In this document: positions 20,159 through 24,021 of the stretch, piece by piece
Numbering within the stretch: position 1 is the first letter of the stretch
Layout: each line of letters starts with the position of its first letter
Assembly: GCA_035709005.1 (NCBI GenBank)
Contig: DASTFB010000005.1
Location: 1-34,259, forward strand
DNA length: 34,259 nucleotides
Reading direction: 5' to 3'
DNA from: Candidatus Methylomirabilota bacterium
Lineage (GTDB): Bacteria > Methylomirabilota > Methylomirabilia > Rokubacteriales > CSP1-6
The notes under the pieces: model-generated
Seen by the model: only the letters and a program-made list of their open reading frames with translations
Told to the model about the DNA's origin: nothing
Database searches by the model: none
Position numbers and translations under genes: made by a program

Positions 20159-21111
20159 CGGCGGATCATCCCGAAGCTGAACCCCTTGACCAGGTGCTTC
20201 TGGATCAGGATGCCCAGCACGACGACGGGCACGGTGATGACCGTGCCGATGGCGGCCTGGGGACCGTAGAGCCGGCCCTCCACGGCGCTCTGGAACTTGT
20301 TGAGCAGCACCGGCAGCGTGGTGACCCTCGGGTGGGTCAGCGTGAGGGCCAGCAAGAACTCGCTCCAGTTGAGGATGAAGATGAAGAGGAACGTCACCAC
20401 CATGCCCGAGGCCACCAGCGGCAGCACCACGCGGCGGATCGTGGTGAGGCGTCCGGCGCCCATCAAGCGGGCGGCATGCTCCAGCGTGTAGGGGACCTCG
20501 TCGATGAAGCTCAGCATCATCCAGATCACGAAGGGCAACGTCGTGGCCGTGTAGAGGAGACCGAGCCCCAGGTAGGTGTCGATGAGGGTCAGGCGAGTGC
20601 CGAAGAGCAGGGTCGTCGTGTGGGGGATCATGATGGCGTAGTAGATCAGGATGGGAATGGCGATCACGATGGGCGGCACCATGCGGATGGTGAGGATCAG
20701 GTAGCGGAAGTTCCTCCCGCCCACGCTGAAGCGCGACACCGAGTAGGCCAGGAAGGTTCCCAGCAGGAGCGAGACGAGCGAGCTGGCCGTGCACACGATG
20801 AACGAGTCGGCCATGGCGCCCCAGATGGCGAAGACCTGGTCGGAGGCCGAGCGGGCCAGGTCCCGGCCCATCTCGCTGAAGGCGAAGATCTGCCGGTAGC
20901 TGTACAGGGTCGGCTCGTAGGGCAGCCAGTGGGGCGGCCACGCCACCCACTCCCACGACTCCTTGAAGGACGTGGACACCATCCAGAAGATGGGGAACAG
21001 CACGAAGGCCGACCAGGCGAGCAGGAGCCCGTGGCGGACGCAGGGGAACAGCCGGCGCCGTCCGCGGCCGGGCGGCCGGCGCACCGCCCCGGGGGCGGCG
21101 GTCACGCTCAC
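20155..21111 (-). CDS. Sugar-type ABC permease, MalG-like
   Basis: A 318-residue inner-membrane permease of the CUT1 MalG/UgpE type. There are about six membrane segments; a long basic N-terminus precedes the first (GLLLAWSAFVLFPIFWMVST). The EAA coupling loop is EHAARLMGAGRLTTIRRVVL (about residues 225-245). The C-terminus KGFSFGMIRR is typical. An insertion of roughly 50 residues (LARSASDQVFAIWGAMADSF and flanks) lies after the first periplasmic loop. The GTG start overlaps the previous permease by four bases (GTGA, 21108-21111). Confidence 0.92.
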   Translation of the reverse strand: MSVTAAPGAVRRPPGRGRRRLFPCVRHGLLLAWSAFVLFPIFWMVSTSFKESWEWVAWPPHWLPYEPTLYSYRQIFAFSEMGRDLARSASDQVFAIWGAMADSFIVCTASSLVSLLLGTFLAYSVSRFSVGGRNFRYLILTIRMVPPIVIAIPILIYYAIMIPHTTTLLFGTRLTLIDTYLGLGLLYTATTLPFVIWMMLSFIDEVPYTLEHAARLMGAGRLTTIRRVVLPLVASGMVVTFLFIFILNWSEFLLALTLTHPRVTTLPVLLNKFQSAVEGRLYGPQAAIGTVITVPVVVLGILIQKHLVKGFSFGMIRR

Positions 21112-22085
21112 GTCTGGCGCTCCCGGAGGACGGCGCTCCGCTGCCGCACCAGCAGGTAGATGCCGGCGTAGATCAGGACGGCGAACATCAGCAGCAGGAG
21201 CATCGAGGCCGCGGCGCCGAAGCTGAACTTGTTGAACTGCCATACCTGGCGCCACAGGTAGAAGGCCACGGTCTGCGTGGAGTTGCCGGGGCCGCCGAAG
21301 GTGAGCAGGACCGACTGGTCGAAGATCTTCAGCGCCTCCATGGCGCGGATGACCACGGCGATCACGATCACTGGCTTGAGCAACGGCAACTGCACCCGCC
21401 GGAAGATCTGCCAGCGGCTGGCTCCCATCACGCGAGCGGCGTTCACCAGCTGCTGGGGCAAGGCGGAGAAACCCGAGAGGAAGATGAGGAAGGTGAGCGA
21501 CGTCCACTGCCAGACGTCGGCCAGGATGATCGCCCACTGCGCGGCCACGGGGTGTGAGAGCCAGCGGATGCGCGGCTCGACACCGAGCAGTGACGTCAGC
21601 GGCCACAGGATCTGATTCAGCGGCCCCGAGTCCAGGTAGATCATCGAGAAGTTGTAGCCCACGACCACGGGCACCACCATCATGGGCACGAGGAACAGGG
21701 TGAGGTAGATCCGCCGGCCCCGGAAGCGCTGGGCCACCAGCATGGCCAGCCCGAAGCCGATCAGCAGCTCCAGCGCCACGGCCACTCCGGCGAAATAGAA
21801 GGTGCGGGCCAGCGCCCACCAGAACTCGACGTCGGTCAGGACGTCGACGTAGTTGCCGAGCCCCTCGAAGTACGCCTGCTCGAAGGGGCGGTTGGCCCGC
21901 CACTTGAGCAGGCTGATGTAGACGGTGAGGGCGAAGGGCACGGCCAGCAGGAGGAGGAAGAGCGCCTCGACCAGGACGAAGGGGATGAGGCGGAACACGC
22001 GCTCCTGCGCCAACCACTTCGCGACCGTCCCGCCCCGCCGCGCCGGCACGCCGGCCGCCGCCCGCGTCGCCCTCACCTCAGCCAC
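21108..22085 (-). CDS. Sugar-type ABC permease, MalF-like
   Basis: A 325-residue CUT1 permease with six to seven membrane segments, starting with IPFVLVEALFLLLLAVPFAL. The coupling loop is VNAARVMGASRWQIFRRVQL (about residues 220-240), followed by the family segment LTFGGPGNSTQTVAFYLWR. GTG 22085 has AGGAGG six bases upstream. Its start lies 475 bp from the stop of its binding protein, a gap filled by two palindromic elements; every other junction in this importer is an overlap. That break may lower permease expression relative to the binding protein. Confidence 0.92.
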   Translation of the reverse strand: MAEVRATRAAAGVPARRGGTVAKWLAQERVFRLIPFVLVEALFLLLLAVPFALTVYISLLKWRANRPFEQAYFEGLGNYVDVLTDVEFWWALARTFYFAGVAVALELLIGFGLAMLVAQRFRGRRIYLTLFLVPMMVVPVVVGYNFSMIYLDSGPLNQILWPLTSLLGVEPRIRWLSHPVAAQWAIILADVWQWTSLTFLIFLSGFSALPQQLVNAARVMGASRWQIFRRVQLPLLKPVIVIAVVIRAMEALKIFDQSVLLTFGGPGNSTQTVAFYLWRQVWQFNKFSFGAAASMLLLLMFAVLIYAGIYLLVRQRSAVLRERQT

Positions 22086-22136
22086 GCGTCGCCTCCTGAT
22101 CCCGCGCGTGATCGCCGCGCGTGCCGGCGGGGCGGA

Positions 22137-22285
22137 GGTGGCTGGGGGGTGCCGAGGGGGCTCCCGATACCACGAGGGCGGCGGCCGCAGGGGACCGTTT
22201 GCGGCTGGGCTCCGTCTCCGCGTGAGGCCCGCGTCAGGTCGGCGGGAAACGGGTCTCGGGACCCCCTCGGCACCCCCCAGCCACC
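22137..22285. repeat. Palindromic element E1: 30-bp stem arms around an 88-nt core
   Basis: Arm 22137-22167 (GGTGGCTGGGGGGTGCCGAG and onward) is complementary to 22256-22285 with a single unpaired base. The core 22168-22255, read on the minus strand, contains GACCCGTTTCCC, GGAGCCCAGCCGCA and CCTCGTGGTA in that order. The same three blocks occur in E2 on the plus strand. It lies between the binding-protein and permease genes and contains no convincing reading frame. Confidence 0.85.
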
Positions 22286-22363
22286 CCCACCCCGCCGGAA
22301 GCCCGTGAAGGGATCTGCCTCGGAGAACTGTGGTGCGGCGGAATGTCCGCGCCGTGGGTTGCC

Positions 22364-22525
22364 GCCGGGGGCGAGGTGGGTGTGGGGGAGGGGTCCGGGG
22401 ACCCGTTTCCCTCGCCCGTGACCGTGCGCCCCCTGGCCCGATGGAGCCCAGCCGCAGCGGGTCCGAAGCGGACGGCGACCTCGTGGTAGCCCGGACCCCT
22501 CCCCCATACCCACCTCGCCCCCGGC
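22364..22525. repeat. Palindromic element E2: 36-bp stem arms around a 90-nt core related to E1
   Basis: Arm 22364-22399 is complementary to 22490-22525 at 35 of 36 positions; the exception can pair as G-U on one strand. The 90-nt core (22400-22489) shares the blocks ACCCGTTTCCC, GGAGCCCAGCCGCA and CCTCGTGGTA with E1, in inverted orientation. The outer stem sequences of E1 and E2 differ, but both remain self-complementary. The 78 bp between E1 and E2 hold only a small GCGGA-ATG-TCCGC palindrome. Confidence 0.85.
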
Positions 22526-22560
22526 GCGCCAGGCGACGTGCGAACGTTCGCGCTGCGGCA

Positions 22561-24021
22561 CTAGAACTTGTCGAGGTAGATTCCGCTCTCCACGCCCTGG
22601 CGCCAGGACTGGATCTGCCGGCTGCGCCCGACGTCGTCGGTGACCTTGTTCCAGCCGGTCTCGATCCGCTTGGCCGCCTCCTCGGCGGACGTGTTGTTGT
22701 TCATCACGTCGGCCAGCGCCTTGTCGAGGACGTTGAAGTACTCGTAATTGCCCTCGATCATGAGCAGCGAGGTGGCGTACTTGGAGTTCTCCATGGTCGT
22801 GGCCAGGAACTGCTCGCCGAAGCGCTTCCGGATGGCCGCATTCTTGAGATTCGACTCGCGGAACGGATCCCAGAAGCCCTTGGGATGGGCGATGGCCTCG
22901 TCCCCGACGGTGGGGCCGGTGAACCACTGGATGAACCAGTAGGCCAGCTCCGGGTGCTTGCCGTACTTGCTCACCATGTAGCCGGTGCCGGCCGCCTGGG
23001 GCGACCGCCGCACGACCTTGCCGTCCGGGCCCCGGGTCTGCGGAACCAGGCAGCTGAGCTGCTTGCCCTTGATGAGGCTCTTCTCGTTGCTGTTGGCGAA
23101 CCCGACGATCGAGGGGAACGACATCACCGAGAACGCCTGGCCGCTGGCCCAGAACGGATAGATCTGCGGCGTGCCCCAGCCCTGGATGTCGGGCGGCATG
23201 TACTTGACGATCGAGGCGAACTGCTTGATGGCCTGGATGCCGTGGGGCGTGTTGATCCGGGGCTTCATATCCTTGTCGAACAGCAACCCCCCGAAATAGG
23301 CCGGGAAGTGACGGTACGAGAAGTTGATGGAGCGGTAGCCCATCGCGCCGTAGAGGCCGTTGTCGAAGGTCATGCCCCAGCGCTTCTGCCCCGGCTTGGT
23401 GTGGAAGAAGGCGGCCATCTGCTCCCACTCCTCCATGGTCGCCGGGCAGCCGGGGTCCTTCTTGAACTTCGCCTTGTACTCGGCCTTGACCTGGGGGTTG
23501 TCCAGCAGGTCCTGGCGGAGCACCAGGATCAGGTGGTCGCCGTCGAGAACGAACAGGTAGAGCTTGCCCTGGTAGTGCTGCTGGTACCGCAGTCCCGACG
23601 CCACGCCCGCAAAGTCGGGCTTGCCCCGCTCGGCGTAGCCGTCGAGCGGAACGATCACACCGGCGCCGGCGGCGTCGGGGGCGATGTAGGGGAAGTCGTT
23701 GAACATGTCGAACTGGCCCGTCTTGGCCACCGCCTCGGCCATGATCTTGGCCGGGATGTCGGTGTAGCCGAGCGGGACGATCTTGATCTTGATCCCCGTC
23801 AGCTTCTCCCACCGCTCCGAGAAGTCCGGGAACGAATTGTTGTAGAGCGAGGACAGCAAGATGGTCTGCTCGACGTTTTTCAGGTTGTGCTTCTTGAGGT
23901 ACGCCTTGGCGCCGTTGATGGCGCGCTCCTCGGGTGTGGCCCCCGGCACCGGCTGGGCGTCGGCCAGACCGGCCGCGCCCAGCACCATGACGAGCATCGC
24001 GACGATCACACGAATTGCCAT
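22561..24021 (-). CDS. Sugar-type ABC substrate-binding protein
   Basis: A 486-residue extracellular solute-binding protein of the family 1 (MalE-like) type. The signal peptide covers residues 1-22 (VIVAMLVMVLGAAGLADA|Q). The two-lobed domain has typical segments such as FDMFNDFPYIAPDAAGAGVI, where ligand proteins of CUT1 importers carry F-D-hydrophobic-aromatic residues, and WASGQAFSVMSFPSIVGF. It is larger than average (about 420). AAGGAGG lies five bases before ATG 24021. The next gene upstream is the acyl-CoA dehydrogenase, 16 bp away; downstream are the two palindromic elements. Substrate unknown: sugars, polyols and glycerol-phosphate compounds are all used by the family. Confidence 0.9.
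   Translation of the reverse strand: MAIRVIVAMLVMVLGAAGLADAQPVPGATPEERAINGAKAYLKKHNLKNVEQTILLSSLYNNSFPDFSERWEKLTGIKIKIVPLGYTDIPAKIMAEAVAKTGQFDMFNDFPYIAPDAAGAGVIVPLDGYAERGKPDFAGVASGLRYQQHYQGKLYLFVLDGDHLILVLRQDLLDNPQVKAEYKAKFKKDPGCPATMEEWEQMAAFFHTKPGQKRWGMTFDNGLYGAMGYRSINFSYRHFPAYFGGLLFDKDMKPRINTPHGIQAIKQFASIVKYMPPDIQGWGTPQIYPFWASGQAFSVMSFPSIVGFANSNEKSLIKGKQLSCLVPQTRGPDGKVVRRSPQAAGTGYMVSKYGKHPELAYWFIQWFTGPTVGDEAIAHPKGFWDPFRESNLKNAAIRKRFGEQFLATTMENSKYATSLLMIEGNYEYFNVLDKALADVMNNNTSAEEAAKRIETGWNKVTDDVGRSRQIQSWRQGVESGIYLDKF

Follow-up and report, generated by a model that had tools for sequence, protein, structure and literature searches.

The window, the whole 34,259-nucleotide stretch that was analysed, carries a group of ABC transporter genes on the minus strand: a solute-binding protein gene (22561-24009; PF01547, E=8e-18), a permease gene (21108-22085; PF00528, E=2.6e-18), and then a second permease and an ATPase. 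Two long hairpins, E1 and E2, lie between the binding-protein gene and the first permease, and the domain matches agree with the preliminary description of this site. Each hairpin has 37-bp arms around a core of ~89 nt. In E1 the left outer arm (22124-22160) is 95% complementary to the right (22262-22298), and the core lies at 22168-22256 on the minus strand; in E2 the left outer arm (22363-22399) is 97% complementary to the right (22490-22526), with the core at 22400-22488 on the plus strand. The cores were located by their motifs, and the covariance model described below matched 22137-22286 (minus) and 22369-22519 (plus). The computed arms, cores and folds are as first described, two long hairpins with unlike stems whose cores have motifs in common in opposite orientation. 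The fold z-scores are about -10, and the stability of either hairpin was not matched by any shuffled sequence. E1 and E2 are the only hairpins in the window to score 16 or more, and block-shuffled controls gave none; that such hairpins are a general feature of gene ends was rejected on the grounds that the window has only these two. A conserved inner helix had also been proposed; it is at best weakly supported and was dropped, since the covariation sits in the arms with little in the core columns. A search of the window against Rfam gave no match above the gathering score, and the best at E<=10 were at chance level.

E1 and E2 belong to a dispersed family. A covariance model was made from nine source-genome copies, and its search of the source genome gave 16-17 copies of the repeat. 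Further copies were found when related genomes were searched, the arms being complementary within copies: arm pairing averages 0.93 within a copy and 0.58 between copies sharing the core. Among 95 genomes of the phylum, 29 carry the family; they all lie within one Rokubacteria family-rank group (11 of 33 genera), with copy numbers that reach at least dozens in a genome. In a pattern scan of genome contigs all 80 among the matches listed were Candidatus Rokubacteria. No viral contig matched the exact pattern, and a phage origin was rejected on this basis; searches of papers for repeats in Rokubacteria gave nothing relevant. The core motifs recur across genera, and the cores vary among copies by indels of 1-2 nt. 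Because of these indels there is no conserved coding frame in the core, and the reading frame ATG GAG CCC AGC CGC was dropped.

Other arrangements were also observed. At L384 (G078:C60:59871-60351) three copies in the same orientation stand in tandem at a spacing of ~181 bp, and at L333 and L363 each copy has two half-cores in opposite orientation, which are possibly fold-back intermediates. At least two further hairpin families have other cores (L246, L248-L250, L351, L358, L360 and L364; L362 and L373), and some of these occupy orthologous sites of the E1/E2 family. A dispersed repeat of ~110 bp in the left flank of L257 (G031:C67) has dozens of matches in G012, G003, G075, G024 and G021.

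Intact relatives of ~261 bp have 25-bp terminal inverted repeats, a CTAG target duplication and no conserved frame; in small size and multiple copies they are also MITE-like. In several genera the hairpin is central in units of ~220-260 bp, whose terminal inverted repeats start with CTAG and are of three types, and in relatives the paired terminal repeats are 218-263 bp apart. The unit is a long palindrome around a non-palindromic core of ~86 nt, and 19 full units, mainly compared within species, align well across terminal repeats, spacers, arms and core. It had been argued that the difference between stems sets these repeats apart from an ordinary MITE. This is true of the older copies, whose stems do differ, but recently amplified copies share both stems and terminal repeats.

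The insertion site is marked by CTAG. On each side of the core this tetranucleotide is most frequent at a distance of 70-90 nt from the edge, with 33 and 37 occurrences per 10-nt bin against 0.94 expected, an enrichment of ~35-40 fold, and 62 of the 107 CTAGs in the surrounding band overlap a predicted stop codon. One empty site, in G075, reads GCACTGCTAGCC, where the TAG is a stop codon; the same site is filled in G031 as GCACTG-CTAG-(~85-bp MITE)-CTAG-(261-bp element)-CTAG, so that the single CTAG of the empty site compares with a CTAG flanking each insert. The ~85-bp MITE in tandem with the 261-bp element at this one stop codon (L264:2365-2454) has CTAGTGCCGTTCCAAC ends. CTAG is about tenfold under-represented in the window (9 against 96 expected from base composition), and at least six of these nine are at TAG stop codons. 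As CTAG is rare and mostly found in TAG stop codons, copies come to lie directly after genes with the stop codon left intact. For some repeats, therefore, a target nearly confined to TAG stop codons is a simple reason for their presence at the 3' ends of genes.

At the locus itself, the CTAG at 22561-22564 is the TAG stop of the minus-strand binding-protein gene and stands 76 nt from the E2 core edge, which is the usual distance for the family; from this we infer that E2 was inserted at this stop codon. The segment from the right arm to the CTAG (22527-22560) would then be a degenerate right terminal segment: its length fits family members, which have CTAG at a distance of 70-90 nt from the core, and it is without a recognisable terminal repeat, as elsewhere in the source genome. 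No CTAG mark like that of E2 was seen at E1. Terminal repeats could not be recognised in any of the 16 source-genome copies, E1 and E2 included, and few of these copies have a CTAG boundary, so that E1 and E2 are assigned to the intact unit by their cores, their arms and one CTAG.

Presence of the element differs between orthologous sites of sister species. In six relatives whose orthologous binding-protein gene is 41-53% identical, the junction between binding-protein and permease genes is short and the element is absent from all six. For one genus, seven sites of the element were compared across eight other species; the nearest species has most of them, and the others are empty there or have a hairpin family with a different core. 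Unlike cores can occupy the same orthologous site, where one species has a core-less hairpin. At some orthologous sites the core is inverted, in L307/L311 with similar arms; some of these inversions may instead reflect separate insertions into a hot spot. Cores at orthologous sites were called by profile search; those called by a permissive motif scan were discarded, as the profile search gave no confirmation. Of the two readings first offered for these hairpins, that of a mobile element is supported by the multiple copies, the CTAG duplication and the differing presence between sister species.

It is clear that the stems covary, as had been proposed: the arms stay complementary while changing, and mostly through double changes. 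In 22 related pairs of copies, nearly all orthologous, both bases of an arm pair had changed with pairing kept in 132 cases; a change on one side only was counted 48 times (34 breaking the pair, 14 leaving a wobble), and in 11 cases both bases had changed and the pair was broken. Transversions are present in 82 of the 132 compensated double changes (62%), which means that a G-U intermediate alone cannot account for these. Where the arms of two copies are nearly identical (three pairs), nine double changes and no single change were counted; the close pair L253/L271 (flanks 93%) is a counter-case, with five single-side breaks and one double change. Arm identity in the pairs is 535/726 or 0.74, an upper estimate as it is computed from those paired positions that could be aligned, and third codon positions of the flanking genes are on average 0.74 identical as well; at some orthologous sites the arms are beyond alignment and of unequal length. 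Identity in the core, taken over positions outside the search pattern, is 0.78 against 0.74 at third codon positions, so that strong selection on these positions after insertion is not evident.

Mismatches within the arms are unevenly divided, with 126 G·T and 49 A·C on the core plus strand, and the G·T excess is seen whether the setting is sense, antisense or convergent. Shared ancestry of the copies inflates the significance of this excess; a per-copy sign test on a subset agrees with the bias (43:17). Core orientation is also biased (antisense 69, sense 35), and 34 copies lie between convergent genes against eight between divergent ones.

The reading that best accounts for these observations is that E1 and E2 are probably old copies of a CTAG-inserting, MITE-like element specific to Rokubacteria, with arms kept matched mainly by arm-to-arm copying. 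In the relatives the unit is seen inserted at CTAG, mostly that of a TAG stop codon, with CTAG on both sides; after insertion its terminal repeats would decay. During DNA replication the long arms could fold back and one arm could template the rewriting of the other; arms rewritten in this way would drift and yet remain complementary, and the core would at times be flipped. Template switching between inverted repeats reportedly homogenises their arms, with inversion of the spacer between them (PMC8604942), and compensatory changes of several bases at once in RNA stems are also reported from it (PMC8794818). The effects on arms and on spacer are both found here, by comparison of sequences rather than as observed events. 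Since together they are the published signature of template switching, selection on an RNA is not needed to explain them, and we take template switching to be the main cause of the arm covariation. The mismatch bias counts against template switching as the whole explanation, as a symmetric DNA correction does not predict an excess of G·T over A·C; such an excess would be expected of a hairpin formed by plus-strand RNA or single-stranded DNA, or of a mutation process specific to one strand.

The strand-biased mismatches and the bias in core orientation are the reason that an RNA role keeps a low probability. According to this explanation, hairpin and core form a structured RNA, cis-acting or small, whose paired bases are selected, giving covarying stems; the recurrence of core motifs across genera is also consistent with it. 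The preliminary description had seen in the covariation a sign of such selection, a conclusion that is not supported when the rate of change in the arms is close to that of third codon positions, when most changes are double and in large part include transversions, and when some orthologous sites have the core the other way round. Furthermore, the non-fixed core positions are barely above third codon positions, Rfam gave no match, either orientation occurs, even side by side in the window, and at many orthologous sites the element is missing or a different hairpin family is present. An RNA under selection is therefore unlikely. A little less doubtful is that arm, core and arm form a module with a function of its own on one strand, where it would act as a hairpin of RNA or of single-stranded DNA; several unrelated MITE types would bear this module, different core families would renew it at the same gene ends, and template switching would keep its stems perfect.

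Two further explanations appear very improbable. The elements are very stable intergenic hairpins that adjoin stop codons and are rare between divergent genes, as would be expected if they stabilised or terminated mRNA at gene 3' ends in the manner of the malE-malF REP, the analogy first drawn for this site; CTAG targeting accounts for that location, though, and the elements are far longer than REPs. The Y1 transposase (PF01797) is absent from the element-bearing genomes except for two partial matches in G031, so the analogy fails on family grounds and membership of the REP/RAYT group was rejected. A side effect on mRNA stability is possible even for a MITE. Alternatively, the core could be the mobile unit and insert into the tips of existing palindromes such as MITEs or terminators, the arms being its target, in a way comparable to the IR-replacing transposition reported for IS1272 (PMC5678879). 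The same core is indeed found in units with three terminal-repeat types, and the unlike cores and core-less hairpin at one orthologous site are of the kind that it predicts. Yet recent copies have arms, spacers and terminal repeats in common as one unit, the insertion boundary is CTAG rather than the core edge, and a clean empty-tip palindrome with the same arms was not found.

For the MITE-like element, a candidate autonomous relative is a 1.9-kb stretch (L232/L319; G013:C148:1088-3000) that encodes a 544-aa protein and has inverted ends like those of one MITE type. The protein has no match in Pfam, NCBIfam or the PDB. Distant relatives of it occur on plasmids of actinobacteria and of the Burkholderia group. 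An attempt to tie the protein to the elements through these relatives failed, as they are without these element ends, and for this reason it is only a lead.

Stem covariation is commonly regarded as the strongest sign that an RNA is functional. The paired changes seen here do not by themselves prove such an RNA. The family provides hundreds of natural long hairpins at orthologous sites, with arms that are rewritten together, roughly as fast as neutral sequence changes, and with known divergence of the flanks, and it can therefore be used to test what covariation DNA template switching alone makes in bacteria.

Among known systems, IS1272, reported to transpose by replacing inverted repeats (PMC5678879), is alike in that its transposition is tied to inverted-repeat targets, but it makes no target duplication, whereas here there is a CTAG duplication and a stop-codon site. 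REP/BIME elements and their RAYTs (PMC2817692, PMC3733652) are also intergenic palindromes by gene 3' ends, sometimes in pairs of opposite orientation; the present elements differ in length, architecture, terminal repeats and CTAG duplication, and their carriers essentially lack the Y1 transposase. With template-switch quasipalindromes (PMC8794818, PMC8604942, PMC7202029) they share multi-base compensatory stem changes and inversion of the enclosed sequence, the differences here being arms of 35-60 bp, cores of ~86 nt, and natural dispersed repeats of an uncultured soil bacterium in which the process is deduced by comparison. The elements are also like bacterial MITEs in being short and multicopy, with terminal inverted repeats, a target duplication (here CTAG), no conserved frame and nearly identical recent copies. 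Unlike these, the Rokubacteria elements have a very long inner palindrome with a conserved non-palindromic core, combine one core with several terminal-repeat types, and have as their target mostly the TAG stop codon.
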